The notes under the pieces were generated by a model. That model ran no database searches, was not told where the DNA came from, and saw only the letters and a program-made list of their open reading frames with translations. Positions 5,177 through 38,528 of a DNA stretch of 64,000 nucleotides are shown in pieces (position 1 is the stretch's first letter; every line of letters begins with the position of its first letter). A program made the position numbers and the translations under genes. This DNA comes from Proteiniphilum sp. X52 (lineage in GTDB: Bacteria; Bacteroidota; Bacteroidia; Bacteroidales; Dysgonomonadaceae): the NCBI RefSeq assembly GCF_003712195.1, contig NZ_RDSD01000011.1:62001-126000 (forward strand), in the 5' to 3' direction.

Positions 5177-5281
5177 AAATTACTAATTACCAATTATACT
5201 AATTACCAATTACTAATTACCAATTACTAATTACTAATTACTAATTACCAATTACTAATTACCAATTACCAATTACCAATT
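5177..5281 (-). repeat. Heptanucleotide array, unit AATTACY (+ strand)
   Basis: About 15 imperfect tandem copies of AATTACC/AATTACT, read on the + strand, fill the space between the rfbD start and the GARKGAA array. On the coding strand the unit reads GTAATTR or TAATTGG. A shorter array of the same unit lies at 38244-38288 in the same position relative to its neighbours. Confidence 0.85.
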
Positions 5282-5328
5282 TCTTCATTCTTCACTCTTC
5301 ATTCTTCACTCTTCATTCTTCACTCTTA
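5281..5328 (-). repeat. Heptanucleotide array, sense-strand unit GARTGAA
   Basis: About seven copies of GAAGAAT/GAAGAGT-type heptamers in coding-strand sense. The array begins 8 bases after the stop codon of the DUF4924 gene and runs into the AATTACY array. It is one of six such arrays in the window. Confidence 0.85.
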
Positions 5329-5336
5329 TTAACCAA

Positions 5337-5879
5337 TCATCGCATCAATTCATCTTCCTCCACAGCTTTGTATTTTTGGGAAAGAAACCGTAACAGGCCG
5401 GTAATTTGAGCAATGGCAGCCTGTGTCTCACCGGAGATTTCCCGTTTCTGCAATTTCAGCAACAGGTAGCCGTACAAAGCCGTGAAGCAGGTTTCCAGTT
5501 CAGATACATCCTTGTTCCCCGACTTTGCCCTTAAAGCCACAATATGAGGCAGTGTATTGTAGTAAACACCAATATATGCCGACTCCTTAGGGTCTTTCAA
5601 CAACCGTAAATGAAGATCGGTAAGGTCTATGACCAGGTTCTTGTTGATCTGCAGATGCCCCTCTTTCTGTATACCCTCCGATTTCATCATCAAGATCAAT
5701 CCTTCGTACCACTCACGGGCTTCCTTCTTTTCCTCTTCCGTGGGATACACGGGGTCAATCAGCGACTGCCGCACCTTGTCTATATCCAATTCATATGATC
5801 GCAAGATATCTTCCAGTTGCCACATGTACAGCAAATATTCCGCAATATTCTCTTGTTTCTTTTGCCGCGCTATCAACAT
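5337..5879 (-). CDS. DUF4924 family protein
   Basis: 180 residues from the ATG at 5879. An ATG at 5915 also opens the frame but would lie upstream of the -7 box at 5894-5901 and so outside the transcript. The sequence is mostly helical and soluble, with features of the Bacteroidetes-specific DUF4924 family (an N-terminal IARQKKQENIAEYLLYMWQLED segment, a central QINKN, and a C-terminal helical bundle). No catalytic residues are recognisable and the function is unknown. It heads the string DUF4924-rfbD-prfC, with two repeat arrays in the gap before rfbD. Confidence 0.8.
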   Translation of the reverse strand: MLIARQKKQENIAEYLLYMWQLEDILRSYELDIDKVRQSLIDPVYPTEEEKKEAREWYEGLILMMKSEGIQKEGHLQINKNLVIDLTDLHLRLLKDPKESAYIGVYYNTLPHIVALRAKSGNKDVSELETCFTALYGYLLLKLQKREISGETQAAIAQITGLLRFLSQKYKAVEEDELMR

Positions 5880-5883
5880 AACG

Positions 5884-5945
5884 TAATTTTGTGCAAAAAT
5901 ACAACGAATGATCAAGTTTTACATCATCGACCCTGGATATTTTCT
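5884..5945 (+). pseudogene. Truncated copy of the promoter and first codons of the MBL-fold hydrolase gene
   Basis: The stretch carries TAATTTTG, then an ATG at 5908 followed by codons for MIKFYIIDPGYF. It matches the promoter box and first codons of the intact MBL-fold gene at 9268-9330 (TAATTTTG, then MIKFHIIESGYF) with similar spacing. After about twelve codons the similarity stops and no hydrolase motif follows. I read it as a fragment left by duplication or deletion. It overlaps the divergent promoter of the DUF4924 gene. Confidence 0.55.
5894..5901 (-). promoter_or_regulatory. Bacteroidetes -7 box (TATTTTTG) for DUF4924-rfbD-prfC
   Basis: On the minus strand TATTTTTG matches TAnnTTTG and lies 14 bases before the 5879 start. 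Confidence 0.6.
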
Positions 5946-6115
5946 ACTATTGTACCATTATAGCATATTCTCCCCTCCCGATGGGGGTGACCTCAAATCA
6001 ACGCCGGGACAAGAAAACCAATGGAGAGTGTCCACCATGGAAAACATAAATTGCCGGTTAAATGAAAAAAATCCTGTTTTGATGATACGTTTTGACACAC
6101 TTCCTCGTCGGATAA

Positions 6116-6637
6116 ATGAGTATGGACATTGTTGAATACAAAAGAATAGTCGTCGCGCTGCGCCCTTCGTTACTCGCAGTGGCCCGCCGCATCACAGGGA
6201 ATGCCGAGGATGCGGAGGATGTGGTGCAGGATGTATGTTTGAAGATCTGGCATTTCCGTGACCGGATCGATCGAAATGAAAATATGGAGGCATACAGCAC
6301 GACAATGGTGAGGAACCTGAGTATTGACAAGATCCGAAGCCGGAAGCCATTTTCCGATGAACTGGAGTTACTCGGCAAAGAAACGGGAGAACATCCCCCT
6401 GATTCATTGCTTGAAGAAAAAGAAGAACGGAATGCCATTCGCAGGATTATCGAGATGCTGCCGCCATTGCAACAACGGATCTTGCGAATGAAAGATCTCG
6501 AAGGATTTGAAACCGTCGAAATCAGCGAAATGACAGGTATTGCAACCGAAGCCGTACGCAATAACCTCTCACGGGCACGCAAACGGATACGCGAATTATA
6601 CCTGATCTATTATCAAACCCAACAAACGACAAAATGA
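6116..6637 (+). CDS. ECF-type RNA polymerase sigma factor
   Basis: 173 residues, the usual size for extracytoplasmic-function sigma factors. Region 2 is recognisable (ARRITGNAEDAEDVVQDVCLKIW, with the core-binding and -10 contacts), as is region 4 (LPPLQQRILRMKDLEGFETVEISEMTG, a helix-turn-helix) ending in the basic RARKRIRE. ATG codons at 6116 and 6122 are both possible starts. It overlaps the next gene by four bases (ATGA), implying translational coupling with a small membrane protein that is probably its anti-sigma factor. Such factors direct RNA polymerase to a small set of stress or envelope genes; the target is unknown, but the downstream barrel gene is a candidate. Confidence 0.93.
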   Translation: MSMDIVEYKRIVVALRPSLLAVARRITGNAEDAEDVVQDVCLKIWHFRDRIDRNENMEAYSTTMVRNLSIDKIRSRKPFSDELELLGKETGEHPPDSLLEEKEERNAIRRIIEMLPPLQQRILRMKDLEGFETVEISEMTGIATEAVRNNLSRARKRIRELYLIYYQTQQTTK

Positions 6638-7086
6638 AAACAGATATCAGACATCTATTAGACAAATATTTTGAAGGAGACAGCTCTGCCGAAGAAGAGA
6701 AGGTATTGCGTCGTTATTTTACGCGGGACAATCTGCCGGAAGAGCTGAGAGTATACGCGTCCCTATTCCGTTTTCTCGACGACGAAGCAGCAGCACTGGC
6801 CGTATTGGATGAGATTCGTAGCGAAAACACGGCCCCTGTTCATCGCAAGCCTTTGTTTTTAACAAAATTACGGATACTCGCTGCCGCGGCAGCCTCACTG
6901 CTGATCGCCATCTTATTACTGACTCGCCCCGATCGACAATCGTCACTGAACGAAAGCTATGTGTGGGTGGATGGCAAACAAATTACAGATCCGGCCACAG
7001 TCCGTAAATATGCTGAAGCATCTTTCGGAAAAGTACAGTCCGAAAGTGACATCATAGAAGATCAGCTCCGCTTTATGCTGGAATAG
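6634..7086 (+). CDS. Single-pass membrane protein, probable anti-sigma factor
   Basis: 150 residues. The N-terminal soluble part (IRHLLDKYFEGDSSAEEEKVLRRYF) resembles the first helices of Bacteroidetes anti-sigma and FecR-like proteins. One hydrophobic segment lies at about residues 78-97 (LRILAAAAASLLIAILLLT), followed by a short periplasmic tail of about 50 residues. It is coupled to the ECF sigma gene by an ATGA overlap, the classic sigma/anti-sigma arrangement. No zinc-binding HxxxCxxC motif is present. The call rests on context and topology and not on a firm family match. Confidence 0.65.
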   Translation: MKTDIRHLLDKYFEGDSSAEEEKVLRRYFTRDNLPEELRVYASLFRFLDDEAAALAVLDEIRSENTAPVHRKPLFLTKLRILAAAAASLLIAILLLTRPDRQSSLNESYVWVDGKQITDPATVRKYAEASFGKVQSESDIIEDQLRFMLE

Positions 7087-7150
7087 ATCAATGATGGTGA
7101 ATCTTCTTATAAAGCCTGTTTTACTATTTGAACATCAACATGATATCACA

Positions 7151-7609
7151 ATGAAGATAAAAAAAACATTTCCACGCCTGCTTATCCTTTTCCTGTTACT
7201 GGTAACCTGCGGAGCTACGGCAAAAGCACAGGAAACCCTGAGGATCAATACTGTATTCGAAAAATATGGCAAGCAAAAAGGCGCTACAATGGTAGTCCTC
7301 TCCGGCAAGGCGCTCCATAACTATCGACTCGATAAATACCGCAGTATTACCCTGCAATATGACCGGACTATGCTGGATGAAATACAACAGTGCCTTGAAA
7401 CAGATAAAAAACAGGCGTACCAGATAAAAGAAGTCATCAGCAATGGTATTATCTCTTCAGGTTATTATCAGCTACCGGAAGAGGAAAACCAAACCAACCG
7501 GTACATCTTGTTCAAAATCGGGGACGACGGTACTGCCACACTCATTTATATGGAAGGCGGAAAAGATTCCGAAGAACTGATCAACCGGCTATTTATTAAA
7601 AAGGAATAG
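7151..7609 (+). CDS. Secreted small protein of an ECF operon, DUF4252/DUF6108-like
   Basis: 152 residues from 7151; the frame is open from 7091 but the 7151 ATG starts a clear signal peptide (MKIKKTFPRLLILFLLLV..TAKAQ). The mature part starts FEKYGKQKGATMVVLSG and ends with YMEGGKDSEELINRLF, a layout seen in small secreted Bacteroidetes proteins found beside ECF sigma factors; assignment to DUF4252 or DUF6108 is from memory and weak. No catalytic motif is seen. It follows the putative anti-sigma gene after 64 bases and is probably in the same operon. A heptamer array starts shortly after its stop. Confidence 0.7.
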   Translation: MKIKKTFPRLLILFLLLVTCGATAKAQETLRINTVFEKYGKQKGATMVVLSGKALHNYRLDKYRSITLQYDRTMLDEIQQCLETDKKQAYQIKEVISNGIISSGYYQLPEEENQTNRYILFKIGDDGTATLIYMEGGKDSEELINRLFIKKE

Positions 7610-7622
7610 GATGTTGTATGGG

Positions 7623-7846
7623 AGAATGAAGAGTGAAGAATGAAGAATGAAGAATGAAGAATGAAGAATGAAGAGTGAAGAAGGAAGAAGGAAGAGTGAA
7701 GAGTGAAGAATGAAGAGTGAAGAATGAAGAATGAAGAGTGAAGAATGAAGAAGGAAGAATGAAGAGTGAAGAATGAAGAATGAAGAGTGAAGAATGAAGA
7801 GTGAAGAAGGAAGAAGGAAGAAGGAAGAAGGAAGAAGGAGGAAGGA
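7623..7846 (+). repeat. Heptanucleotide array, unit GARKGAA (about 32 units)
   Basis: An almost unbroken run of GAATGAA, GAGTGAA and, toward the 3' end, GAAGGAA heptamers on the coding strand, starting 13 bases after the stop of the secreted protein gene. It is the longest array in the window and is followed by a MITE-like element before the next gene of the same direction. Confidence 0.92.
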
Positions 7847-7880
7847 TTTGCAGATTTAACGATTTTGAATTTTGAATCTT

Positions 7881-7968
7881 GAGTCCCCTCCGAAAAGTCA
7901 AAAGACCATTGATTTTCAATGATTTGAAAACCCGTGAAATCGGTTTTTGGGGATTTCGGAGCAGACTC
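7881..7968 (+). mobile_element. MITE-like element family A, copy 1 (88 bp)
   Basis: The element begins GAGTCCCCTCCGAAA and ends TTTCGGAGCAGACTC, an imperfect terminal inverted repeat of 15 bp. It is flanked on both sides by the 6-bp direct repeat AATCTT (7875-7880 and 7969-7974), as expected for a target-site duplication. An internal ATTGATTTTCAATGA palindrome is shared with the other copies. It carries no coding sequence. Confidence 0.8.
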
Positions 7969-8017
7969 AATCTTGAATTTTTAAATTGAAATAAAATCAT
8001 CAAACAATTATAAAACA

Positions 8018-8932
8018 ATGAAGAGAACTACAATTACCATCGTTTTTTTGTCGATAGCCTTGTATATGGCAGCTTCTTTAACGTTTCCCGCCGATACCAC
8101 TTTTCATTATAACAACCGGAAAGTGGTTATTTCGGAGAACGATAATGAGATAAATATCTCAATGTATCATCTGAATGAGCAGGGTGACACCATAGAAAGC
8201 CGGAAGGTCTACGAAGGCGTCTTCACTGACAGTAGATGCATTGAAAGGGTGTACCAAAACAGTTTTGAAATATCGGTACCTGATATTTTCAAACCGAAAA
8301 ACAAGCGTCGTCCAAGCCGTTCGCACTGGGCCGGTTTCGGTGTGGGATTCTCCAATCTGCCCCAAGGCCTTGATTTCGATGGGGAATTGGCATCCATTGT
8401 CAACCTGAGTCGTTCATTGCAATATAACCTGAATCCCATTGAAGGTTCATGGCGCATAGGAAACAGCAATTTCACCGGAATTGTCGGCATGGGTATCCAG
8501 TTCAACTCCATCCACTGGCAAAACAACAAAGCCATCGAAGTAGAGGATTACAAATCGGTTGTCACCACCACCGAACCGGGCAATGAATACAGAGACTCCC
8601 GCCTGCATTACACCTATCTCACCTTTCCCTTCCTGATAGAAACCAATTGGGATTTGGGACGTCAATCGCATCTCTTTCTGAACGCAGGTGTCGTCGCCAA
8701 AGTAAAGACCGCATCATCATCCGCCGTTTGGAGGAATAATGAAAAAGGAAAAAAAGAAAAGACAAAACTTCCCGGCGACCTGAATATTCGTCCTGTCACG
8801 CTGGATTTACTGGCACAAGGGGGAGTCAACGACCTGGGTTTCTTTATCTCATATTCCCCGTTCAACCTCTTTGGAAAAAATAAGGGCCCTGAAGCCAATC
8901 AGGCAACTATTGGGGTACAACTTTACTTCTGA
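8018..8932 (+). CDS. Outer-membrane beta-barrel protein (PorT/OmpW-like fold), unassigned
   Basis: 304 residues with a signal peptide (about residues 1-25). The N-terminal part is a small beta-rich domain, and the rest alternates aromatic and polar residues, ending in the terminal Phe signature (TIGVQLYF) that marks beta-barrel insertion by the Bam machinery. SHWAGFGVGFSNLPQGL and the later strands are typical of the Bacteroidetes outer-membrane beta-barrel families. No specific family is claimed. It lies downstream of the ECF sigma operon but is separated from it by a heptamer array and a MITE, so cotranscription is uncertain. A hairpin terminator follows. Confidence 0.7.
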   Translation: MKRTTITIVFLSIALYMAASLTFPADTTFHYNNRKVVISENDNEINISMYHLNEQGDTIESRKVYEGVFTDSRCIERVYQNSFEISVPDIFKPKNKRRPSRSHWAGFGVGFSNLPQGLDFDGELASIVNLSRSLQYNLNPIEGSWRIGNSNFTGIVGMGIQFNSIHWQNNKAIEVEDYKSVVTTTEPGNEYRDSRLHYTYLTFPFLIETNWDLGRQSHLFLNAGVVAKVKTASSSAVWRNNEKGKKEKTKLPGDLNIRPVTLDLLAQGGVNDLGFFISYSPFNLFGKNKGPEANQATIGVQLYF

Positions 8933-8977
8933 CGCGGGAAAAGATTCTACACAGCGCTAAACTTCACAATAAACAGG

Positions 8978-9020
8978 CCGGGATTGTTTCTTTTAAAAAA
9001 GAGATACGACCCCGGTTTTT
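8978..9020 (+). terminator. Rho-independent-like terminator after the barrel gene
   Basis: A CCGGG arm at 8978 pairs with CCCGG at 9011, and inner TCTTTT/AAAAGAGA segments extend the stem; TTTTT follows. A second CCCGGTTTTT occurs at 9054-9063 through a local duplication. Confidence 0.55.
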
Positions 9021-9201
9021 AAATAATTGGATCTGCATAAAAATCGACACGATCCCGGTTTTTAAATAATGAGCCTGCTCCGGAATCCCAAAAACCGATT
9101 TCACCGGTTTCCAACTCATTGAAAATCAATTTTCTTTTTGAGGGGATTTGAGTAAAAAGACTTTTCGGAGGGAACTCAATAATTGGATCTGCATAAAAAT
9201 C
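9011..9201 (+). repeat. Tandem duplication of the terminator tail, split by a MITE
   Basis: The block CCCGGTTTTTAAATAAT followed by TTGGATCTGCATAAAAATC occurs once at 9011-9045. The same two halves recur at 9054-9070 and 9184-9201 with a family A MITE plus its target duplication between them. Gene-free stretch 8933-9267 otherwise shows nothing. Confidence 0.7.
9071..9177 (-). mobile_element. MITE-like element family A, copy 2 (107 bp)
   Basis: Inverted relative to the other three copies. Termini are GAGCCTGCTCCGGAA and CTTTTCGGAGGGAACTC. It is flanked by the 6-bp direct repeat AATAAT (9065-9070 and 9178-9183). Internal sequence, read on the minus strand, aligns with the 35318 copy, including TTGATTTTCAATGAGTTG. 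Confidence 0.8.
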
Positions 9202-9267
9202 CTTTTTGGAACTATGGTTGTTTAATGAAATTCGTTGTGTTCAGTGTGGAGATAAGGCAAAAAGAGG

Positions 9268-9275
9268 TAATTTTG
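9268..9275 (+). promoter_or_regulatory. Bacteroidetes -7 box (TAATTTTG) for the MBL-fold gene
   Basis: TAATTTTG matches TAnnTTTG, 18 bases before the ATG at 9294. Confidence 0.6.
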
Positions 9276-9293
9276 TGTAAATATTGATAGAGT

Positions 9294-10076
9294 ATGATCA
9301 AGTTCCATATCATTGAATCGGGATATTTCCTCGGCGACGGCGGTGTCATGTTCGGCCCCGTACCCAAAAAATACTGGTCGGCAAAATATAAGGTGGATGA
9401 AAACAACATGTGTGTGATGGCGCTCCGCTGCCTCTTTATCGAGACAGATAATAGACGTATCCTGGTGGATGCGGGAATAGGCGACAAACACAACTCCCGG
9501 TTGAAATTCTTTCAACCTTTCGATCAGAAGGATATTGCCGGAGAGATCCGGAAAATCGGATATGCGCCGGAAGAGGTGACCGACGTGGTCATCACCCATC
9601 TTCATTTCGATCACTGTGGCGGCTGCACAGTATTTAACAGCAACAAAGAAGCGGTTCCTGCCTATCCCAACGCCACTTATCACCTGAGTCTCGCCCAATG
9701 GAAGAATTACAGAAACCCTTCACTTTTCGAAAAAGGCTCCTTTTTCCCGGACAATATCGAGCCGGTATATGATGCGGGACAGTTACAATTTGTACTGGAA
9801 GACATCCAACTCGACGAACATATCCGGCTGGAATTGTATGACGGCCATACTCCGGGACAGATCGCCCTGCTTTTCGATACCGAAGAAGGGAATTACGCCT
9901 TTCCGGGCGACGTGGTACCCACTTCGCTCAACCTGTCACTAAGCTGGCTTTCTGCCTATGACAACAGCGTGGTCATAGCTATGGAAGAAAAAAAACGTTT
10001 TATGGACAAAGCAATAAAAGATCAACGCACGCTTATCTTTTATCACGATGCCTATACCGTTTCCTCCAAATTATAA
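9294..10076 (+). CDS. MBL-fold metallo-hydrolase (lactonase-like)
   Basis: 260 residues. The metal-binding HLHFDHCGG motif lies around residue 101, the second histidine ligand in DGHTPGQ near 184, the bridging aspartate in FPGDVVP near 205 and a C-terminal histidine in FYHDAY near 250. This set and the length are typical of the AHL-lactonase-like branch of the metallo-beta-lactamase fold, zinc hydrolases of lactones and similar esters; the substrate cannot be read from sequence. No signal peptide is present, so it is cytosolic. The S9-like gene follows closely on the same strand, suggesting a two-gene operon. A fragment of this gene's promoter and start occurs at 5884-5945. Confidence 0.88.
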   Translation: MIKFHIIESGYFLGDGGVMFGPVPKKYWSAKYKVDENNMCVMALRCLFIETDNRRILVDAGIGDKHNSRLKFFQPFDQKDIAGEIRKIGYAPEEVTDVVITHLHFDHCGGCTVFNSNKEAVPAYPNATYHLSLAQWKNYRNPSLFEKGSFFPDNIEPVYDAGQLQFVLEDIQLDEHIRLELYDGHTPGQIALLFDTEEGNYAFPGDVVPTSLNLSLSWLSAYDNSVVIAMEEKKRFMDKAIKDQRTLIFYHDAYTVSSKL

Positions 10077-10134
10077 GAAATCCACCGGTCAGGCACATGC
10101 AAAAGAATGTCTTAATAACCTGAAAATAAAAATT

Positions 10135-12629: not shown

Positions 12630-12634
12630 GCCGG

Positions 12635-13003
12635 TTATTTTTTAGGATCAGACTTTTCCACTTCGTCCAGTAATTTCCGAATCTCTTCCACAGAGATATC
12701 CTGCTCTTTTATAAGCGACGAGACCACACTCAGGTAGGAGTCATCGAAATATTTCTTCACCACACTCCTCAATGTCCCGTTGCGGTATTCCTCTTCACTG
12801 ATGATCGCGAAATAACGATAGGTGGCGCCGAATGTTTCGTGCGAGAGAAAACCCTTCTCTTCGAGCATCCGCGCGTAAGTGGATAATGTGTTGAAATGCG
12901 GTTTCGGATCTGGGTACTTCTCCACCAATTGCTTCACAAAGAGTGCCCCTTCATCCCAAAAAAAACGCATCACCTCTTCTTCCTTTGCTGTCAATCCCCT
13001 CAT
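12635..13003 (-). CDS. BlaI/MecI/CopY-family transcriptional repressor
   Basis: 122 residues with the winged-helix layout of BlaI: LTAKEEEVMRFFWDEGALFVKQLVEKYP, then FNTLSTYARMLEEKGFLSH as recognition helix and wing, and a C-terminal dimerisation helix. These repressors bind dyads in front of their own operon and are inactivated by proteolysis after signalling from the M56 partner, which is encoded 5 bases downstream. The likely promoter is about 225 bases upstream, so the leader contains a complete MITE-like element ending 12 bases before the ATG; no antibiotic resistance gene is adjacent. Confidence 0.92.
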   Translation of the reverse strand: MRGLTAKEEEVMRFFWDEGALFVKQLVEKYPDPKPHFNTLSTYARMLEEKGFLSHETFGATYRYFAIISEEEYRNGTLRSVVKKYFDDSYLSVVSSLIKEQDISVEEIRKLLDEVEKSDPKK

Positions 13004-13015
13004 ATTTCAAATTAT

Positions 13016-13355: not shown

Positions 13356-13376
13356 CGTCAACTATACTCACTACGT

Positions 13377-15251: not shown

Positions 15252-15331
15252 TACCGGAGAGAAAACATTGAGCTCCAATAATGTAAAAAAAGGGCAAAAG
15301 GCAAACAATCAATGGATACTTTTCGATATTT

Positions 15332-15524
15332 AGAATCTGTTTTGAATTTTTTCATCCATTGTTTTTTAGCCATTTTTTGATGGATTTGGATTTTCATTGA
15401 TTGAAATGTGGCGGGCCACTTAAAAGAAATGAAAGTTCAAAGGCGCGAAAAAGGGCAAAAAACAATATGAAAGAGTGGAAAAATAAGCGTGAAATAATTA
15501 CTCGTAAAATTCAAAACAGTTTCT
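15332..15524 (+). mobile_element. MITE-like element family B, copy 1 (about 193 bp)
   Basis: Termini GAATCTGTTTTGAATTTT and AAAATTCAAAACAGTTTC form an inverted repeat of about 17-18 bp. The interior (CATCCATTGTTTTTTAGCC, GTGGCGGGCCAC, AGGGCAAAAAACAA) is shared with an inverted copy at 34380-34572. No clear target duplication and no coding sequence. It fills most of the 15252-15615 gap. Confidence 0.75.
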
Positions 15525-15537
15525 TAAGTAAAAATTG

Positions 15538-15545
15538 TAACTTTG
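15538..15545 (+). promoter_or_regulatory. Bacteroidetes -7 box (TAACTTTG) for the M3 peptidase
   Basis: TAACTTTG matches TAnnTTTG and starts 14 bases after the end of the family B MITE, so any -33 element would lie inside the MITE terminus. Confidence 0.6.
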
Positions 15546-15615
15546 CACTTATTTCATAGGAACCCGATTACCCGGTTTTTTTCAATTGTTTAAATCATAT
15601 TTAATTAGAAGTCGA

Positions 15616-21164: not shown

Positions 21165-21764
21165 TCACAGAATTGTTTTATTGATGCTGTGGATATAGCT
21201 GAGCAATTCTTCCCTGCCCTGCCCTTTCTCGGATGAAGTGACAAAGACAGGCGGCAGTTCCTCCCAAGTTTCCAACAGCTTTTCCTTATAGCCGTCGATA
21301 TTCAGTTGCAGGCGCCCGGAGCCCAGCTTATCGGCTTTGGTGAAAACGATGGCAAACGGAACACCATTCTCTCCCAACCATTCCATAAACTCCAGGTCAA
21401 TCTTCTGTGCCTCATGGCGCGAATCCACCAGCACAAACAGGTTGGTCATCGCTTCCCGTTCCAGGACATAATCCTCGATGATCTTACGGAGTTTATCCCG
21501 ACCCTCTTTGCCGCGGCGTGCATAGCCGTATCCCGGCAAGTCCACCAGATACCATTCGTCATTGATTAGAAAATGGTTGATAAGCATCGTCTTCCCCGGC
21601 GTGGAAGAGGTCATAGCCAACCCTTTCCGGTTAGTCAGCATATTGATGAGCGACGATTTTCCCACATTCGACCGGCCAATAAACGCATACTCCGGTTTCC
21701 CATCCTGCGGGCACTTCCGGTAGTCGCTGTTACTTATCACGAATTCCGCTTTTTTTATGATCAT
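21165..21764 (-). CDS. engB: Ribosome biogenesis GTP-binding protein EngB (YsxC/YihA)
   Basis: 199 residues, family length. P-loop [10 protein letters not shown] at about 30-39, TPGKT (G2 region), [11 protein letters not shown] (G3) near 75, TKADKL (G4) near 142 and SSEKG (G5). EngB is a cytosolic GTPase needed for large-subunit assembly. It lies downstream of the symporter gene on the same strand with a heptamer array in between. No promoter box is seen between them. Confidence 0.96.
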
Positions 21765-21821
21765 ATTTTTTCAAATTTCAGATTCAAAAATCCAGATTCC
21801 AAAATCGTTAAAGCCATGCAT

Positions 21822-21968
21822 CTCTTTTCCCTCTTTCCTCTTTCCTCTTTCCTCTTTCCTCTTCCCTCTTCCCTCTTCCCTCTTTCCTCTTCCCTCTTCC
21901 CTCTTTCCTCTTCCCTCTTCATTTTTCATTCTTCATTCTTCACTCTTCATTCTTCACTCTTCTTTCTT
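21822..21968 (-). repeat. Heptanucleotide array, sense unit GARTGAA passing into GAGGRAA
   Basis: Read on the minus strand, the array starts inside the last codons of the symporter gene as GAGTGAA/GAATGAA units and continues beyond its stop as about 15 GAGGGAA/GAGGAAA units toward engB. It encodes the last residues of the symporter. Confidence 0.88.
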
Positions 21969-24745: not shown

Positions 24746-26851
24746 TTATTTCTTCTTCCAGATTGTAACCTGCAACGTCCGGTTTTCCATCAAACGCGAT
24801 GATCTTTTTATCGTCTTCTTGATATCCTGTGGATCGGATATGAGCTCGAACTGTGGTGCCAACGTCGCTTTTATACCATCGAGGGATGTCACCGGTTCGC
24901 CGTCTTTTTTAAAACCTCCCGGCCATTTGTCCCTCGGTGTCCTGGTCGTATCCCACTCGTAGTCCGACGCCAGTATCAAATAACCATTGTCGTTCAATCG
25001 TTCGTGAATGTGCGACAGGAAAAGCAGGGGATCGCTTAACTCTTCCAGCAATGCCGGGACAATGATCAGATCGTATCCCGAGTAGAGGGGTTTCAGATTC
25101 ATGGCGTCAGCCTGCATAAACAGAATATTTGCCTTTGCTTCCGACAGGTCAAAATCAGCCAGCACAATATCGCGGTAGAATACCAGTTCACCCTCGTCTT
25201 TTGTCGTATAGCGCACATAACCCTGCTCCTGCAGTTGGATGGGGATCCTTATCATTCGGGCGGTAAAGTCCAGGGCCGTCACATCCTTGTACTTCCGCGC
25301 CAGTTCAAAGGCAAGCCGTCCCGTGTCGGCATTCAGATCCAGGATACGTGCTGTGGCATTTCCTTTGAGCAACTCATCCGCCAGTTCTGCCAGCCGGATA
25401 GTGAATACGGGGTTATTACCCCAGGCATCACCCCAGCTGTTCTCGCAGCATAGCGTCACTTCCTCATCCGTTTCATAATCCGCCTGCTGTATCACCGGCG
25501 GCCTGTCTGATTCCACATACCTGAATCCGGCATGTTGATAGAAATGCCGCCTGAAAGCATATCGCGAGTGAATGGTCGCTTCGTTGCCGGTCGATATCCA
25601 AGAACCTCCCTTGATGAGATTATGCTTTCCGTCGAAGGTCGGCGTGGAGAAATCGTCATACATCGGATGCACCTTGAAGCCGGGAAAACCCGTGATAGGC
25701 GTCTCGGTCCACTGCCACACATTCCCGATCACATCAAAGAAATCTCCCTGTTCGAACATATCCACGGGGCAGGGCGAAGTGAAATATTCCAGATTGACAT
25801 TGCCTGGTGCCTGTTCCCACCGCGTCACCTCCGTCAAGCCTGCCGCCTGATGCAGCCGGTACCATTCCGCTTCGGTGGGCAATCTGAAGTTACGTCCCGT
25901 ATTCGCACTCTTCCAGTTACAAAAGGCTTTTGCTTCCAGATAGTTCACCTCCACCGGCCAGTTCCACGGCATGGGTATCTCTTCGGCCACCAATCTCAAG
26001 CGGTAGCCATCCTCATCTTTCCTCCAGAAGAGCGGCATCTGTGCCCGTGCATAGTTACGCCAGTTCCACCCCTCTTCTGTCCAGTAGTCCTCTGTTTCGT
26101 ATCCTTTATCTTCTATGAATTCCAGAAATTCCTTGTTGGAAACCAGGTATTTCGACGCGGAGAAATCAGCCACCTCTTCCTCAGAGGCGCCGTATTCGTT
26201 ATCCCAACCATAAAGCGGATGATCTGCGGGCTTTCCTAATTTCATCAGAGCACCTGTCACAGGTATCAATTCGTTTGCCGGCGCCTCTCCGCTGACATTG
26301 CACCGCTCGCCGAATCGGCCCTTTACCACCTGATTCAATGGCAACTGGCGGATCAACACCGACGAAGTCTCCAAGTGGATCCGTTCATGTTCAATGCCCA
26401 TCATCACCATCCAGAAAGGACTCTCCCAATCAATCGGTAATTCAAGCGGAGTATTGTCAATCACTTTCAGAATCAACTCTTTCGCCTTATCGCGATAAAC
26501 CCGCACCTCCGACACCGGCGGCCAATCGTAATGGTTGTTATCCAGATCGTCCCAACTCATCTCATCCACCCCAATGGCGAAGGTCGACTCAAATTCAGGA
26601 TTGATGCGACGGTCGATGATCTTTGCCAGATACAGCTTGTTGATAAAAAAGACAGCCGTATGCCCCAGATAAAAGAGAATGATATGGCGCAACGGATCAC
26701 CACGCATATAAAACACATCATCCGACCTCAACTGCGTGTATAGCAACTCGTCAATTGCCCAAGTCTTCAGAAAATAATCCCGGATCTCCTGCCGTTTTTC
26801 TTCCGGCGCGCCGAATCGCAGATCAATTGTTTTAGTAATCAATTCTTTCAT
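24746..26851 (-). CDS. ovoA: Ovothiol synthase OvoA (5-histidylcysteine sulfoxide synthase / methyltransferase)
   Basis: 701 residues, the full OvoA length, with three modules. A DinB-like N-terminal domain supplies the iron ligands (H64 in LGHTAVFF and the HERIH motif at 155-159). An FGE-sulfatase-type domain follows (about 200-460; LPTEAEWYRLHQAAG, GNVWQWTETPITGF, KGGSW, HAGFRYV). A C-terminal SAM methyltransferase domain (from about 500; RILDLNADTGRLAFEL) finishes it. OvoA couples cysteine to C5 of histidine with oxygen and N-methylates the imidazole, giving the antioxidant ovothiol; the lyase OvoB is not adjacent. The gap to the upstream GNAT gene is filled exactly by a heptamer array, ending 7 bases before the ovoA ATG. 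Confidence 0.93.
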   Translation of the reverse strand: MKELITKTIDLRFGAPEEKRQEIRDYFLKTWAIDELLYTQLRSDDVFYMRGDPLRHIILFYLGHTAVFFINKLYLAKIIDRRINPEFESTFAIGVDEMSWDDLDNNHYDWPPVSEVRVYRDKAKELILKVIDNTPLELPIDWESPFWMVMMGIEHERIHLETSSVLIRQLPLNQVVKGRFGERCNVSGEAPANELIPVTGALMKLGKPADHPLYGWDNEYGASEEEVADFSASKYLVSNKEFLEFIEDKGYETEDYWTEEGWNWRNYARAQMPLFWRKDEDGYRLRLVAEEIPMPWNWPVEVNYLEAKAFCNWKSANTGRNFRLPTEAEWYRLHQAAGLTEVTRWEQAPGNVNLEYFTSPCPVDMFEQGDFFDVIGNVWQWTETPITGFPGFKVHPMYDDFSTPTFDGKHNLIKGGSWISTGNEATIHSRYAFRRHFYQHAGFRYVESDRPPVIQQADYETDEEVTLCCENSWGDAWGNNPVFTIRLAELADELLKGNATARILDLNADTGRLAFELARKYKDVTALDFTARMIRIPIQLQEQGYVRYTTKDEGELVFYRDIVLADFDLSEAKANILFMQADAMNLKPLYSGYDLIIVPALLEELSDPLLFLSHIHERLNDNGYLILASDYEWDTTRTPRDKWPGGFKKDGEPVTSLDGIKATLAPQFELISDPQDIKKTIKRSSRLMENRTLQVTIWKKK

Positions 26852-26858
26852 ATGATTA

Positions 26859-27040
26859 TTTCACTCTTCATTCTTCATTCTTCACTCTTCATTCTTCATT
26901 CTTCACTCTTCATTCTTCATTCTTCACTCTTCATTCTTCACTCTTCATTCTTCATTTTTCACTCTTCATTTTTCATTCTTCACTCTTCATTCTTCACTCT
27001 TCATTCTTCATTTTTCACTCTTCATTTTTCATTCTTCACT
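26859..27040 (-). repeat. Heptanucleotide array spanning the GNAT-ovoA gap (about 26 units)
   Basis: On the minus strand GAATGAA, GAGTGAA and GAAAAAT-type heptamers begin in the stop codon of the GNAT gene and run without a break until 7 bases before the ovoA start. There is no room for a separate promoter. Confidence 0.92.
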
Positions 27041-27599
27041 ACCAACAATCAATTATCTTAACCGCCAAATAGACTTTCTTCATTTCAAATTCCTTTCCCC
27101 CGGTGCTTAATTTCCTCTGTGAAATTCCCGCGACAGGCACGAATCCCAACTTTTTGTAAAGTTCCAATGCGGGCTTATTCTTTTCCCACACCCTGATCAC
27201 AGCATGGGAATAATTCTCCGACGCCTTTTGCAGGTAGTTTTTCAGCATCTGCGAAGCAATCCCCCTACCGCGATAATCCGCATGTACCATTACCTCGGCT
27301 ATATACACCGATTGACCCACCGGAACATGGGGACACCCATCGGCAGGGAAATCCGGATCTCTCTTCAAGGGAAAAGCTGCGAGCAATCCCGCCAGTCGGT
27401 CGCCGACAAACGCCACACAACCGGTTCCGTCGTGGAATAAATTATCCAGGGTAACCTCTACGGTTTCCGGAGCGATAAACTGGGCATACCCACCTGTGGT
27501 AAAGGCATGCAGATAAAGTCCTGTCAACTTGCTCCTGAACTCCGAATAATGGAGTGTATTCCATCCACAAATCCTGATCGTCTCTTTCACATCTTCCAT
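27039..27599 (-). CDS. GNAT-family N-acetyltransferase
   Basis: 186 residues with the GNAT fold: beta-strand YIAEVMVHADYRGRG, the acetyl-CoA pyrophosphate loop RGRGIASQ near residue 112, and the later VWEKNKPALELYKKLGFVPV typical of the C-terminal half. It would transfer an acetyl group from acetyl-CoA to an amine in the cytosol; the substrate is unknown. It directly precedes ovoA on the same strand, so a link to ovothiol or histidine chemistry is possible but unproven. The stop is TAG, and the heptamer array begins inside it. Confidence 0.85.
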   Translation of the reverse strand: MEDVKETIRICGWNTLHYSEFRSKLTGLYLHAFTTGGYAQFIAPETVEVTLDNLFHDGTGCVAFVGDRLAGLLAAFPLKRDPDFPADGCPHVPVGQSVYIAEVMVHADYRGRGIASQMLKNYLQKASENYSHAVIRVWEKNKPALELYKKLGFVPVAGISQRKLSTGGKEFEMKKVYLAVKIIDCW

Positions 27600-33176: not shown

Positions 33177-33178
33177 AT

Positions 33179-34117: not shown

Positions 34118-34127
34118 TTGTAATCCT

Positions 34128-34217
34128 TCAATCTCTTAGGGTTTCCCCACTGCTTGCAGCGGGAAGTAAAAATTACTCCTCCATGATTCTCCCACGGCTT
34201 GCGGCAGGGAGATTCAT
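34128..34217 (-). repeat. Hairpin-rich leader element (family C), copy 1
   Basis: Read on the minus strand, this 90-bp stretch aligns with 40210-40302 at roughly 80% identity. Both contain CTTCCCGCTGSAAGCAG followed by GGGAA, which folds into a hairpin with a four-base loop, and a second imperfect hairpin around TGCCGCAAGC. It ends about 10 bases from the ATG at 34117. The rest of the 34118-34591 gap holds a duplicated CTTCGCCATATAAT (about 34287-34317) and a family B MITE. Confidence 0.65.
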
Positions 34218-34379
34218 TAATAAAGTTGGAAACAGTTTCTTAGACGCCTCATCAGATAAACAAAAAAAGAGCGCAATTGTTGCCCTCTTCGCCATATAAT
34301 GCACTTCGCCATATAATATCATATTTCACTTCATATTAAACAATTCATACAGAACAATTGTTATTTCATAAATAATATC

Positions 34380-34572
34380 GAAACTGTTTTGAATTTCACG
34401 AGAAATTGTATTACACCTATTTTTCCACTCTTTCATCTTGTTTTTTTGCCCTTTTTCGCTCCTTCGAATTCTCATCTCTTTCCAGTGGCCCGCCACATTT
34501 CAATGAATGAAATTCCAAATCCATCAAAAAACGGCTAAAAAACAATGGATGAAAAAATTCAAAACAGTTTCT
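34380..34572 (-). mobile_element. MITE-like element family B, copy 2 (about 193 bp)
   Basis: The reverse complement aligns along its length with 15332-15524. Termini are GAAACTGTTTTGAATTT and TTCAAAACAGTTTC. It ends 19 bases before the pirin ATG, so any pirin promoter must lie in or beyond the element. A stray AAACAGTTTCTTAGA at about 34230-34244 resembles a single leftover end. Confidence 0.75.
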
Positions 34573-34591
34573 TGATCAACCAAAATTAATT

Positions 34592-35311
34592 ATGAAAACT
34601 GTTTATCATTCGGCTGCCTCCCGGGGGTACGCCAATCACGGCTGGCTAAAATCTGCCCATACATTTAGTTTTTCCAATTACCACAATCGCGCGAGGATGC
34701 ATTTCGGTGTGCTTCGGGTAATCAATGATGACTCTATAGAAGGGGGAGGAGGTTTCGGCACGCATCCCCACAACGACATGGAAATTATCACCATCCCCCT
34801 GGAAGGCGATTTGGAGCACAGGGACAGCATGGGTAACGGCGGTATGATCCGCAATGGGGATATACAGGTGATGTCTTCCGGCACCGGAGTAACCCACAGC
34901 GAGTTCAATGCCAACAGCGACCGGCGTGTGGAACTGTTACAGATATGGATCTTTCCCCGTGAGAAAAGCATCACGCCAAGATACGAGCAAATGCATATCG
35001 CCGATTCCGCAAAACCCAATGATTTCCAACAGATCATCTCGCCCCACAAAGAAGATGAAGGGTTGTGGATTCATCAGGATGCATGGTTTCACCTGGCTCA
35101 GTTCGACAGTGGTGTGATGAAAGAATACAACCTCAAAAAAACGGGAAACGGCGTCTATATTTTCGTCATTCGGGGAAAAGCCAAAGTTGGCGATCAAATA
35201 CTGCACAAGAGGGATGGTTATGGTATTTGGGATACCGACCATTTCCCTCTTGAAGCATTGGAGAATTCAGAAATCCTGTTGATGGAAGTTCCTATAGAAC
35301 TACCGAAATAA
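34592..35311 (+). CDS. Pirin family protein (YhhW-like)
   Basis: 239 residues with two cupin domains. The N-terminal metal-binding motif is seen in FGTHPHNDMEIITIPLEG near residue 55-70 and the matching HRDSMG and SGTGVTHSEFN further on; the C-terminal cupin lacks clear metal ligands, as usual for pirins. Bacterial pirins of this type bind iron and some oxidise quercetin; the physiological role is unclear. No TAnnTTTG box lies between the family B MITE and the ATG. A family A MITE begins 6 bases after the stop. Confidence 0.92.
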   Translation: MKTVYHSAASRGYANHGWLKSAHTFSFSNYHNRARMHFGVLRVINDDSIEGGGGFGTHPHNDMEIITIPLEGDLEHRDSMGNGGMIRNGDIQVMSSGTGVTHSEFNANSDRRVELLQIWIFPREKSITPRYEQMHIADSAKPNDFQQIISPHKEDEGLWIHQDAWFHLAQFDSGVMKEYNLKKTGNGVYIFVIRGKAKVGDQILHKRDGYGIWDTDHFPLEALENSEILLMEVPIELPK

Positions 35312-35317
35312 AATTAT

Positions 35318-35427
35318 GAGTCCCCTCCGAAAAGTCTTTTTTACCCAAATCCCCCTCAAAAGAACTATTGATTTTCAATGAGTTGCAGACCCAGGAAATC
35401 GGTTTTTTGAGTTTTCGGAGCAGGCTC
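35318..35427 (+). mobile_element. MITE-like element family A, copy 4 (110 bp)
   Basis: Termini GAGTCCCCTCCGAAA and TTTCGGAGCAGGCTC, flanked by AATTAT on both sides (35312-35317 and 35428-35433). It lies in the convergent space between pirin and the YugP-type gene, where its palindromic form could act as a terminator. Confidence 0.82.
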
Positions 35428-35452
35428 AATTATTTAATTATTTACCCACTGA

Positions 35453-36130
35453 TCATCTTCTGCTCGTAGCAATCATGATGTAGTAAAGTAATGTGGCGAG
35501 GGAACTGAGTGCTGCCACCACATAAGTGTATCCGGCCCAGCGAAGGGCATCCACCGCCTGATTGTGGTTGCCCGCATCGGTAATACCGGCGGTGCTGAGC
35601 CAACGGAGGGCACGGTTGGTAGCATTCTTTTCCACCGGCAGTGTGATAAAACTGAAGAGTGTGGAAAGAGCAAACATGGCAATTCCGAACCAGAGAAGCA
35701 TGGGGAAGGTCTGGATCAGGATAATACCGGCCAGGATCACCCACATGACCCATTTGGAGGTAGACGAAATCACCGGCACCAGTGCCGAACGCATTTTCAA
35801 GGGCGCATATCCTTTCGCGTGCTGGACGGCATGTCCCGTTTCGTGAGCTGCCACCGCGGCAGCTGCCACGCTATTAGAGCCGTATACCGGTTCACTCAAG
35901 TTGATGGTCTTATTCAACGGGTTATAGTGGTCTGTCAGCCGCCCTCTCACGGAGATCACCTGCACATCGTAGATCCCGTTGTCGCGCAGCATCTTTTCCG
36001 CCACCTCTTTCCCTGTCATCCCATTGCGTAAGGGAATTTTTGAATACTTCTTGAAGCGGCTCTGCAGCGTGCCTTGCACGATCCAGCCCGCCACCGCAAT
36101 TGTAATAAATATAATCCAGATTGTAGCCAT
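35453..36130 (-). CDS. Membrane zinc metallopeptidase, YugP family
   Basis: 225 residues. A membrane helix at the N terminus (IIFITIAVAGWIVQG), the zinc motif HETGHAVQH near residue 96, and three hydrophobic segments in the C-terminal half (about 122-180 and 205-220). GRLTDHYNPLNKTINLSE upstream of the zinc motif is characteristic of the YugP-type neutral zinc metallopeptidases. The substrate is unknown. The gene follows purA on the same strand, with a heptamer array in the gap. Confidence 0.92.
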   Translation of the reverse strand: MATIWIIFITIAVAGWIVQGTLQSRFKKYSKIPLRNGMTGKEVAEKMLRDNGIYDVQVISVRGRLTDHYNPLNKTINLSEPVYGSNSVAAAAVAAHETGHAVQHAKGYAPLKMRSALVPVISSTSKWVMWVILAGIILIQTFPMLLWFGIAMFALSTLFSFITLPVEKNATNRALRWLSTAGITDAGNHNQAVDALRWAGYTYVVAALSSLATLLYYIMIATSRR

Positions 36131-36167
36131 TATTTCATTTGATTTAATAAATATGGTTCATTCCCAG

Positions 36168-36358
36168 TTCTTCATTCTTCATTCTTCATTCTTCATTCTT
36201 CATTCTTCATTCTTCATTCTTCACTCTTCATTCTTCATTCTTCATTCTTCATTCTTCACTCTTCATTCTTCATTCTTCATTCTTCATTCTTCATTCTTCA
36301 TTCTTCATTCTTCACTCTTCACTCTTCATTTTTCACTCTTCATTTTTCACTCTTCATT
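36168..36358 (-). repeat. Heptanucleotide array between purA and the YugP-type gene (about 27 units)
   Basis: On the minus strand GAGTGAA/GAATGAA units run from about 57 bases after the purA stop to 37 bases before the next start codon. The right part mixes GAAAAAT units. Confidence 0.9.
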
Positions 36359-36414
36359 GAACATCCCGGAGACGGCAAAAGTTCATAGCGCCCGCTCACC
36401 GGCGGACAGGATTT

Positions 36415-37674
36415 TTATCTTATAATTGTCTGTGCGCGGTCGGGGCCAACTGATACGATTGCGACAGGAACTCCCAATTCCGTTTCCAAAAAGGTCAGGT
36501 AATTGTTGAATTCTTCAGGAAATTCGTCTTCCGACTGCATCTTTGTCATATCGGCCTGCCATCCGGGAAGATCCACATAAACAGGTTCAATACCATCCGA
36601 GATATCATAAGGCAGGTCTTCGGTCTCCTCGCCGTTCACCCTATAGGCCACGCAGGCTTTGATTGTCTCAAAGTTGTCCAACACGTCACTCTTCATCATT
36701 ACCAACTTCGTAACCCCATTCAACATAATGGTATAGCGCAGCGCTACCAGGTCGATCCATCCGCAACGGCGCGGCCGTCCTGTTACAGAACCATACTCGT
36801 TCCCGTTATCGCGCAACCGTTGCCCGTCCTGATCCAACAGTTCCGTAGGGAAAGGTCCGCTGCCTACCCGTGTACAATAAGCCTTGAAGATGCCGTACAC
36901 CTCGCCGATCCGTCCGGGAGCTACTCCTAGTCCGCTGCAGGCACCGGCACAAATAGTATTGGAAGAAGTCACGAAAGGATACGAACCGAAATCTATATCC
37001 AGCATCGATCCTTGTGCACCCTCGGCCAGCACCGACCCTCCTTCCGCCAGATGTTTATTAATAAAATGTTCGCTGTCGATAATTGTAAACTCCTTCATCT
37101 TCTCAATTCCCTCGAACCAAGGCTTTTCAAGGGCAGGCAGGTCATATTCCAACGGGTAATGGTCGAGCAATTCCTTGTGTCGCAGCACTGCATTGCGATA
37201 TTTCTCTTCAAAGTTGTGGAAGAGGTCTCCGACCCTCAATCCGTGGCGTCCGGCCTTATCGGTATAAGCAGGGCCTATACCTCTCCCTGTCGTACCGATT
37301 TTTGCATCACCCATCGCTTTTTCCGAAGCCGCATCCAGCAGGCGGTGCGTCGGCAGGATCAGGTGCGCCTTTTTAGAGATGAAAAGCCTGTCGGTGAGTG
37401 TGTGTCCTGAAGACTCCAACCCTTCCACTTCCTGTTTGAAGAGTGCAGGATCGATCACTACCCCGTTTCCTATGATATTTATTTTTCCATCCTGAAAAAT
37501 TCCCGACGGGATCGATTTCAGGACATATTTCTCCCCTTCGAATTCCAGCGTATGCCCCGCATTAGGTCCACCCTGAAACCGCGCCACCACCTCATACTGA
37601 GGTGTAAGCACATCCACCACTTTTCCTTTACCTTCGTCGCCCCACTGGAGCCCTAAGAGTACATCAACTTTCAT
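36415..37674 (-). CDS. purA: Adenylosuccinate synthetase
   Basis: 419 residues, family length. The P-loop-like GDEGKGK is at residues 12-18, followed by GGPNAGHT near 36, GRGIGPAYTDKAGR near 130, EGAQGSMLDIDFGSYPFVTSSN near 220 and GSVTGRPRRCGWID near 296. The enzyme uses GTP to join IMP and aspartate, the first committed step to AMP. Its start codon overlaps the fur-family stop (ATGA), so the two are translationally coupled. Confidence 0.98.
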   Translation of the reverse strand: MKVDVLLGLQWGDEGKGKVVDVLTPQYEVVARFQGGPNAGHTLEFEGEKYVLKSIPSGIFQDGKINIIGNGVVIDPALFKQEVEGLESSGHTLTDRLFISKKAHLILPTHRLLDAASEKAMGDAKIGTTGRGIGPAYTDKAGRHGLRVGDLFHNFEEKYRNAVLRHKELLDHYPLEYDLPALEKPWFEGIEKMKEFTIIDSEHFINKHLAEGGSVLAEGAQGSMLDIDFGSYPFVTSSNTICAGACSGLGVAPGRIGEVYGIFKAYCTRVGSGPFPTELLDQDGQRLRDNGNEYGSVTGRPRRCGWIDLVALRYTIMLNGVTKLVMMKSDVLDNFETIKACVAYRVNGEETEDLPYDISDGIEPVYVDLPGWQADMTKMQSEDEFPEEFNNYLTFLETELGVPVAIVSVGPDRAQTIIR

Positions 37675-38195
37675 TTTTTATTTTGTTTACCTTTGCTTTT
37701 ATTCTGTTTTGTTTCAGTGTCACGTGCCAGCTTCCTCAGCTCCATCCGTTTAGCATGGACGCACTTGCTGCATGTGCCGTAGATGTAAGTGCTGTAGTAA
37801 CTCACTTTGAACTTCCTGATCTTTTTGAGTTGGACAGGCGTCAGCAAGTCACCCGTCATCTCACGCACCTCTCCACAAGTGGTACAGATAAGATGGTCAT
37901 GGTTTTCGTTACCATACGCACGTTCGTATTTCGATATATTCGCCCCGAACTGGTGTTTTACTACCAGTCCGCAATCCAGCAACAGTTGAATGGTATTATA
38001 AAGTGTGGCACGACTCACCCGGAAGTTCACTTCAATCATAGAATTATACAGAGAATCCATATCAAAATGGCCCCGGGTAGAATAGATATGATCGAGAATC
38101 GCAAACCGTTCGGGTGTTTTTCTGTGCTTGTGGAGTGTCAGATACTCCATAAACTCGCTTCTTACCTGTTGCTTCAATTTTTGAGCGCCATCCAT
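37671..38195 (-). CDS. Fur-family transcriptional regulator
   Basis: 174 residues. Winged-helix DNA-binding part (HRKTPERFAILDHIYSTRGHFDMDSLYNSMIE, then VSRATLYNTIQLLLDCGLV), the metal/dimerisation domain with HDHLICTTCGEV and a C-terminal CSKC pair that would hold a structural zinc. Such regulators control iron, zinc or peroxide responses; which one cannot be told. The -7 box ends only about 7 bases before the ATG at 38195, so the transcript would be almost leaderless. purA overlaps its 3' end. Confidence 0.93.
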   Translation of the reverse strand: MDGAQKLKQQVRSEFMEYLTLHKHRKTPERFAILDHIYSTRGHFDMDSLYNSMIEVNFRVSRATLYNTIQLLLDCGLVVKHQFGANISKYERAYGNENHDHLICTTCGEVREMTGDLLTPVQLKKIRKFKVSYYSTYIYGTCSKCVHAKRMELRKLARDTETKQNKSKGKQNKK

Positions 38196-38201
38196 AGGTT
38201 A

Positions 38202-38209
38202 CAAAATTA
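38202..38209 (-). promoter_or_regulatory. Bacteroidetes -7 box (TAATTTTG) for fur-purA
   Basis: On the minus strand TAATTTTG matches TAnnTTTG and lies 6 bases before the start codon, which predicts a transcript start at or next to the ATG. Confidence 0.5.
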
Positions 38210-38243
38210 TTCTATTTTTTCGATTTTACCCTTTTTTTCAGTT

Positions 38244-38288
38244 GAAAATTACAAATTACCAATTACTAATTACCAATTACAAATTATC
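38244..38288 (-). repeat. Heptanucleotide array, unit AATTACY (+ strand), short copy
   Basis: About six AATTACC/AATTACT/AATTACA units upstream of the fur-family gene. As at 5177-5328, it lies between a GARKGAA array and the next start codon. Between it and the array at 38396 lies about 100 bases with nothing recognisable. Confidence 0.8.
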
Positions 38289-38395
38289 ACGACCACATTT
38301 CATTTCGCCACAGACTACCTGCTCTTTCACCTCACTTAATCACATAGGCACCTTTTCACTTTCCTCCTGGTTCTGATATTCTTTGTCCGTCTTCC

Positions 38396-38528
38396 CTCCT
38401 TTCCACTCTTCCCTCTTCATCTTTCATTCTTCATTTTTCCCTCTTCCCTCTTCATTCTTCACTCTTCACTCTTCATTCTTCATTCTTCACTCTTCACTCT
38501 TCATTTTCACTCTTCATTTTCACTTCAC
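38396..38528 (-). repeat. Heptanucleotide array after the GHL10 gene (about 18 units)
   Basis: On the minus strand the units begin at the TGA stop of the GHL10 gene (GTGAAGTGAAAATGAAGAG) and continue as GAGTGAA, GAATGAA and finally GAGGGAA units. Confidence 0.88.

Follow-up and report, generated by a model that had tools for sequence, protein, structure and literature searches.

Tandem heptamer arrays in a Proteiniphilum genome read outward from gene edges

We studied a 64,000-nucleotide stretch of Proteiniphilum sp. X52 (assembly GCF_003712195.1, contig NZ_RDSD01000011.1, positions 62,001 to 126,000; hereafter the window), in which six arrays of the purine-rich heptamer GARKGAA lie between genes that include those for an adenylosuccinate synthetase, a symporter and an acetyltransferase (Table 1). 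Below we describe these arrays, their counterparts in the rest of the genome and in relatives, and the explanations that could account for them. The placement of GARKGAA arrays at stop codons is the gene-end half of a wider polarity, by which arrays of several unrelated heptamers are oriented outward from genes.

GARKGAA arrays in the window and across the genome

All six arrays were present where the original prediction had placed them, far above chance: a three-unit GARKGAA pattern with up to two mismatches gave 110 matches in the window, against none in 100 shuffles. Every one is sense and lies in a gap between co-directional genes. Measured from the end of the upstream gene, the arrays start at +8, +13, -29, -2, +56 and -9 nucleotides (nt). 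Three arrays therefore reach into the upstream gene, where the original prediction had one, and in two cases the shared part is several codons long. Array 4 fills almost the entire gap, ending 7-8 nt ahead of the start of gene 24746-26851.

Table 1. Heptamer arrays of the window and their neighbouring genes (positions are those of the window).
Feature	Position	Strand	Relation to genes and other arrays
GGTAATT/AGTAATT array	5178..5281	-	directly 3' of array 1; end 11 nt ahead of called start of RmlD-like gene 4210-5166
GARKGAA array 1	5281..5328	-	sense to both genes; 8 nt past stop of DUF4924 gene 5337-5879 (Pfam)
GARKGAA array 2	7623..7846	+	13 nt past stop of DUF6108 gene 7151-7609
GAATYTK-type tract	21772..21806	-	between array 3 and start of GTPase gene 21165-21764; limits 21779-21806 in one scan, 21772-21803 in another
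GARKGAA array 3	21822..21968	-	starts 29 nt inside symporter gene end (stop at 21940); supplies last codons and stop
GARKGAA array 4	26859..27040	-	overlaps TAG stop of acetyltransferase gene 27039-27599
GARKGAA array 5	36168..36358	-	56 nt past stop of adenylosuccinate synthetase gene 36415-37674
GGTAATT array	38246..38286	-	shares gap with array 6; 51 nt ahead of start of 37671-38195
GARKGAA array 6 (imperfect)	38396..38528	-	starts 9 nt inside end of gene 38520-39971; provides its TGA

We searched the whole genome (G000; 4.43 Mb in 96 contigs) with a sequence-only model of GARKGAA, which gave 130 hits in 54 clusters; the search scored 150 of 639 candidates and may have missed short arrays. 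Around every model hit, in stretches fetched around all clusters, with L018 covering the start of contig C4, 58 arrays were called. Because the first 40 stretches were chosen for their arrays, array densities in them are not genome averages, and 400 kb of the genome taken outside these stretches held no GARKGAA array. A 28-mer GARKGAA pattern had 274 overlapping matches in the genome, compared with a single match for the pattern read backwards. Arrays also stand at contig ends (C4:4-182, C7:128381-128551, and C87 from 167623 onward) and therefore probably break the assembly, which makes array lengths uncertain.

Of these 58 arrays, 36 are sense and eight antisense in co-directional gaps, four lie in convergent and five in divergent gaps, and five, which lack one flanking gene at a contig or locus end, were dropped from the edge statistics. 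The sense bias proposed for the window is therefore real across the genome (36:8, p=2.5e-5; outside the window 30:8, p=5e-4) but not strict, and the proposed absence from convergent and divergent gaps fails. A restriction to co-directional gaps had been considered as a rule in itself and was rejected, being mostly baseline: the sampled DNA holds 689 co-directional, 88 convergent and 88 divergent gaps among 865 (80% co-directional). Position is clearly non-random. The 5' edge of the sense arrays lies within 10 nt of the upstream stop or overlaps it in 28 of 36 cases, where 8.0 are expected and 20,000 random placements in the same gaps reached a maximum of 17. The median distance to that stop is -3.5 nt, and the gene's own stop lies inside 18 of the 36. 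None of the 58 arrays lies inside a gene, a location that the original prediction had named as counting against it. Of the eight antisense arrays, five begin no more than 20 nt from a start codon, against an expectation of 0.85.

At two loci (L070:10037-10094 and L086:9939-10045), the last array unit enters the next gene, and ATGAAGAA is apparently the start there, encoding, as judged by eye, the Met-Lys-Lys of a lipoprotein-like signal peptide. One array would thus appear to give both a stop and a start.

Outward polarity across heptamer families

The antisense GARKGAA arrays near start codons were the clue that led us to search for a wider rule. Other heptamers share the gaps with GARKGAA; in the stretches chosen for GARKGAA, 117 arrays have a period of 7 and 29 a period of 8. 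We scanned six families (GARKGAA, RGAACTK, AATTACH, RAATTAA, CAAGARY and GAATYTK) over 2.007 Mb of the genome and 0.4 Mb of a relative, G014. For a clear-edge set, we left out arrays more than 40 nt from any edge or with edge distances differing by less than 20 nt, and kept one array per gap edge. In this set, 99 of 102 arrays point outward and three inward (54:1 at stops, 45:2 at starts), with the GAATYTK strand reversed, a choice made after both genomes had been seen. In G014 the count is 23 of 24, or 19 of 20 without GAATYTK. The inward exceptions are at L066, L063 and L221 in the Proteiniphilum sp. X52 genome and at L267 in G014. Clear-edge arrays lie at a median of -0.5 nt from stops and 10 nt from starts. 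Arrays are sense at gene ends and antisense at starts because the strand richer in A than in T reads away from the gene (Table 2).

Table 2. Near-edge arrays in co-directional gaps of the Proteiniphilum sp. X52 genome, by family.
Family	Sense, stop	Sense, start	Antisense, start	Antisense, stop	p (Fisher where marked F)
GARKGAA	29	3	3	0	0.003 F
RGAACTK	9	1	11	3	0.003 F
AATTACH	5	0	19	0	2e-5 F
RAATTAA	3	0	4	0	0.03 F
CAAGARY	3	0	2	1	0.4
GAATYTK (faces other way)	1	4	0	3	0.14

The same contrast appears when families are disregarded. The AT skew of period-7 arrays, taken on the coding strand, is positive in 58 and negative in six of 64 arrays near stops, and positive in 10 and negative in 44 of 55 near starts (stop versus start, p=2e-13; without GARKGAA, p=9e-8; in G014, p=3e-4). 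Among wider relatives (L099-L153), the skew near stops is positive in 14 and negative in one of 21 arrays. Of the 26 co-directional gaps with a pair of arrays, 23 have them converging and none has them back to back (a hand count with GAATYTK reversed). Inside genes, the 2.0 Mb scanned held no array of the six families.

The polarity extends to an edge without codons. At the end of contig C87, an array starts 8 nt from the 5' end of the 5S ribosomal RNA (rRNA) gene (L094 9797-9908), and within the 23S-5S spacer an A-rich tract lies towards 23S and a T-rich one precedes 5S. Since this spacer holds such a polar pair, polarity does not need codons; the evidence comes from one locus and its homologues. 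The spacer is short in G014 and G021, longer in the Proteiniphilum sp. X52 genome and filled by a different heptamer in G016 (L278), and two spacers of the Proteiniphilum sp. X52 genome (L282, L297) differ in the number of heptamer units. No array of the six families lies within 130 nt on either side of eight transfer RNA (tRNA) genes in the 60 of 101 own pieces scanned, all of them outside L217-L257; the one exception is a loose, repeat-like spacer that separates two tRNA genes in L202.

Turnover among relatives and likeness to described repeats

GARKGAA arrays occur in at least eight of 61 genomes at E<=1e-5, the Proteiniphilum sp. X52 genome included; this is a lower bound, since the filters were stricter and no more than 106 candidates were scored in any genome. 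The stop-edge bias recurs in other genomes, where 16 of 19 arrays are sense and have their first base between -19 and +40 nt relative to a stop. Five of these 19 come from G014, from stretches that are also part of the polarity census, and the two replications therefore overlap.

We compared the orthologous gaps of arrays 3 to 6, together with further gaps available in both genomes. In distant relatives the gaps are usually shorter and have no array of this kind. The gene adjoining array 4 encodes a protein 95% identical to that of P. acetatigenes DSM 18083 (L099), and the gap itself illustrates what is found in close relatives: different heptamers occupy the same place in L099 and L117, and in G014 the array is shorter. 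The array of gap L073:9683-10102 spans 257 nt, whereas its counterpart in G014 covers 33 nt between the same borders. In the array-6 gap of G021 (L187), the units differ and the 3' flank is the same, and symporter orthologues differ at the last codons, where array 3 supplies them. Both the heptamer word and the number of units thus change between relatives. Together with the polarity, this argues for fast-turnover satellites with a directional bias, a cause that we infer. These observations bear on two roles that the original prediction had suggested. A part in linking or insulating adjacent transcripts appears unsupported at the sequence level, with the same words standing before starts in the opposite transcript orientation and orthologous gaps holding another heptamer or no array. 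Sensing of translation end fares no better given the polar pair in the codon-free 23S-5S spacer. A conserved transcript linker and stop-codon sensing are both disfavoured because the words occur at starts too, the rRNA spacer is polar and orthologous gaps vary.

Short tandem heptamers are familiar from cyanobacteria as STRR sequences. The closest likeness is to the heptamers GGGAATC and GGGGA(C/T)T of Xanthomonas and Nostoc, which, in the passages of that study drawn on here, are mainly intergenic and nearly always closer to the open reading frame (ORF) 5' of them, whatever its direction; most are found no more than 50 bp away from it, past the stop when on its coding strand and ahead of the start when on its non-coding strand; they are often in convergent pairs in Xanthomonas, few lie between divergent ORFs, unit number varies between relatives, and no function was found (PMC4692102, 2015). 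The arrays described here are likewise tandem heptamers, mainly intergenic and nearer to the ORF 5' of the repeat strand (99 of 102 clear-edge arrays). They differ in that some words are G-free on one strand and several words in one genome follow the same rule. The Xanthomonas and Nostoc repeats are G-rich and form quadruplexes in vitro, whereas a G3 quadruplex pattern occurs in two of 58 GARKGAA arrays; the Xanthomonas repeats are about evenly sense and antisense, whereas GARKGAA is sense-biased (PMC4692102, same passages). Two-unit copies of the words themselves are nearly absent (GGGAATC 0, GGGGACT 0, GGGGATT 1 in 2.0 Mb).

A further parallel is offered by the TAACTGA direct repeats of Beggiatoaceae, Cyanobacteria and some Bacteroidetes, with long arrays in a few Bacteroidetes (PMC4679880, 2015, in the parts consulted). 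These too are intergenic heptamers near gene edges with stop codons in the forward orientation, and in their main species they are mostly forward, just before start codons, in 2-6 units (PMC4679880). GARKGAA differs in being sense near a start in three of 35 near-edge co-directional arrays, and tandem TAACTGA has no two-unit copy in 2.0 Mb (119 single copies). More broadly, heptamers were reportedly the commonest long unit in most genomes studied for long simple sequence repeats, and polymerase slippage was proposed (Mrazek 2007, as cited in PMC4679880 and PMC4692102); the citing passages do not mention polarity at gene edges. Simple repeats of phase variation stand in the gene or promoter of a surface protein and switch its expression; here no array of the six families lies in a gene, and the genes next to the arrays of the window include those for adenylosuccinate synthetase, a symporter and an acetyltransferase. 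The original prediction had known of no described case of such a rule in Bacteroidetes. For this group we likewise found none in the open-licence literature; taken as a general claim it is partly mistaken, as a closely similar rule at ORF edges is in print for heptamers of Xanthomonas and Nostoc (PMC4692102).

With a ratio of 99:3, the polarity holds for several unrelated words at both kinds of gene edge, and it points to the way in which such arrays are made. It also argues against explaining the ORF-edge rule of Xanthomonas and Nostoc in general by quadruplex formation or stop-codon function. In the passages of PMC4679880 and PMC4692102 considered here, slippage is so far the only suggestion for the abundance of heptamers in bacterial genomes.

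How the polarity could arise

The explanation that we find best, and regard with modest confidence as correct, is that the arrays are fast-turnover heptamer satellites of fixed outward polarity with a directional origin or growth. Heptamer satellites would arise and turn over quickly in unconstrained intergenic DNA of the Proteiniphilum lineage. The analysis shows where the arrays lie, their polarity, their absence from genes and the change of word and unit number among relatives; the polarity of each word is fixed, and of its two strands the one richer in A than in T (GARKGAA, RGAACTK, AATTACH, RAATTAA and others) begins at the gene edge and reads outward. Units may be gained and lost by slippage, the polarity would stem from directional making or extending of arrays, and selection on gene ends would set the array border. 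At starts, arrays mostly stop about 10 nt short; at stops, an array may enter the last codons, because units with T at K carry TGA. Because seven is not a multiple of three, such units place a stop in every frame within ~21 nt. Slippage accounts for the confinement to gaps and the turnover, but not for the polarity; selection for stops or avoidance of ATG accounts for part of the GARKGAA pattern, but not for AATTACH, RGAACTK or the rRNA spacer.

A more specific form of this explanation is a directional generator, which we put forward tentatively and consider doubtful. During repair or replication, new DNA would be extended away from a conserved gene edge, with tandem heptamers of words that slip on that strand being added as its 3' end grows. 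Gaps would fill convergently from both sides, stops, starts and rRNA ends would behave alike, and a telomere-like polarity set by mutation would be common to Bacteroidales, Xanthomonas and Nostoc. If such a generator exists, the polarity of simple repeats is set by mutation and not by RNA function.

Several observations weigh against a directional origin. The mechanism itself is inferred, and no maker was found; an age gradient along arrays is only a trend (31 arrays, p=0.09). Gene starts, called with a home-made codon-Markov script, may be off, and the strand names of the five families other than GARKGAA were set after seeing our own data, although the Fisher tests are independent of naming. 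Two of the six families, CAAGARY (p=0.4) and GAATYTK (p=0.14), are not significant alone, and AATTACH near edges in G014 is outward in seven arrays and inward in two (0, 0, 7 and 2 in the order of Table 2). GARKGAA favours stops (31 of 35 arrays in the clear-edge set), a preference that does not follow from an edge rule alone. On the start side, the AT skew fails in the wider relatives L099-L153 (three positive and two negative of six). For arrays of period 8, it is the GC skew and not the AT skew that shows polarity (G-rich outward, p=1.4e-6), arrays with periods longer than 8 are not polar, and Tandem Repeats Finder (TRF) shows four arrays of period 14 or 21 inside genes.

Simple sources of the polarity were tried and rejected. 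The base composition of array-free gaps is not skewed in this way; these gaps are A-rich before starts, the opposite of arrays. Pre-existing 10-mer seeds in the array-free parts of gaps number 10 for GARKGAA, five for RGAACTK and 19 for AATTACH, too few to account for the pattern, and 10-mers inside genes are more often sense (GARKGAA-like 43:16, RGAACTK-like 20:3), which fits stops and not starts. Non-homologous end joining as the maker was set aside: Ku is present in the array-bearing genomes G000, G007 and G021, but also in the matchless G001, G003, G017 and G018. Ku was not found in array-bearing G002, G006, G013, G014 and G046, and is therefore not required.

Selection at the RNA level is a rival explanation: the rule can equally be read as A-rich trailers and T-rich leaders. 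Purine- or A-rich trailers and pyrimidine- or T-rich leaders would be tolerated or useful and the opposite orientations purged, for example through the lack of Rho loading after a stop, or through S1-type binding or the absence of a false AUG before a start. The sense RNA of GARKGAA has no C, its reverse is C-rich and G-free, and C-rich, G-free RNA resembles a Rho loading site; GARKGAA also contains ATG, which is likely harmful ahead of a start. However, the GC skew is alike at stops and starts once GARKGAA is removed (p=0.75), and AATTACH arrays after stops have C and almost no G, for which reason the Rho idea, including insulation by C-free array RNA, is not general. AATTACC and GGTAATT are too similar for selection alone to be expected to give 24 of 24 in the Proteiniphilum sp. 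X52 genome, the rRNA spacer is polar without translation, and the arrays vary between relatives. RNA-level selection thus fits as a description, but we find it implausible that it would reach 97% with words so alike, and consider it unlikely. Slippage in random orientation, filtered by codons, seems distinctly unlikely. Here GARKGAA would bring stops in all frames at gene ends and its ATG-free reverse would survive at starts, in line with the 18 sense arrays that contain the gene's stop and with the ATGAAGAA start codon that the last unit seems to supply at L070 and L086. Several sense arrays, however, start immediately after the stop, at a place where carrying a further stop makes no difference; RGAACTK, AATTACH and RAATTAA can hold stops on the reverse strand too, yet that strand stands at stops in three, zero and zero near-edge co-directional cases; and codons are absent from the rRNA spacer. 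Families that are neutral with respect to stops are polar as well, which already weakens this explanation.

A dispersed intergenic cassette of fixed order, such as GARKGAA followed by GGTAATT, could also have been copied into many gaps in either orientation, and copying end to end would keep the outward polarity automatically. This order is found in nine co-directional gaps and its reverse in one, with similar junctions, and other dispersed matches are slightly more frequent in co-directional gaps with arrays (27 of 93) than in those without (123 of 634; p=0.04). At that cut-off, however, 66 of the 93 have no further dispersed sequence in common with other gaps, a gap most often holds a single array, and terminal repeats shared by the arrays were not seen in the flanks read, in a search that did not extend to an enzyme; we consider a cassette very unlikely.

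Other repeats share the intergenic space. An inverted-repeat-like element (TTGAGTCCCCTCCGAAA ... TTTCGGAGCAGACTCAA) lies just 3' of GARKGAA arrays at about 7877-7972 of the window, with similar elements at L073:9700-9840 and L069:12350-12560. The gap at 15252-15615 of the window, like tens of other gaps, holds a dispersed non-coding repeat with AAAGTTCAAAGGCGCGAAAAAGGGCAAAAAACAA (25 to 36 matches per such segment), as well as a TTTTTCATCCATTGTTTTTTAGCC stretch found in several gaps. A longer-period repeat of the CACATTAGTCACATTGG type, seen at L067:10445-10874, L073:747-887 and L082:18372-18500, is scattered over tens of gaps, with up to 44 matches.

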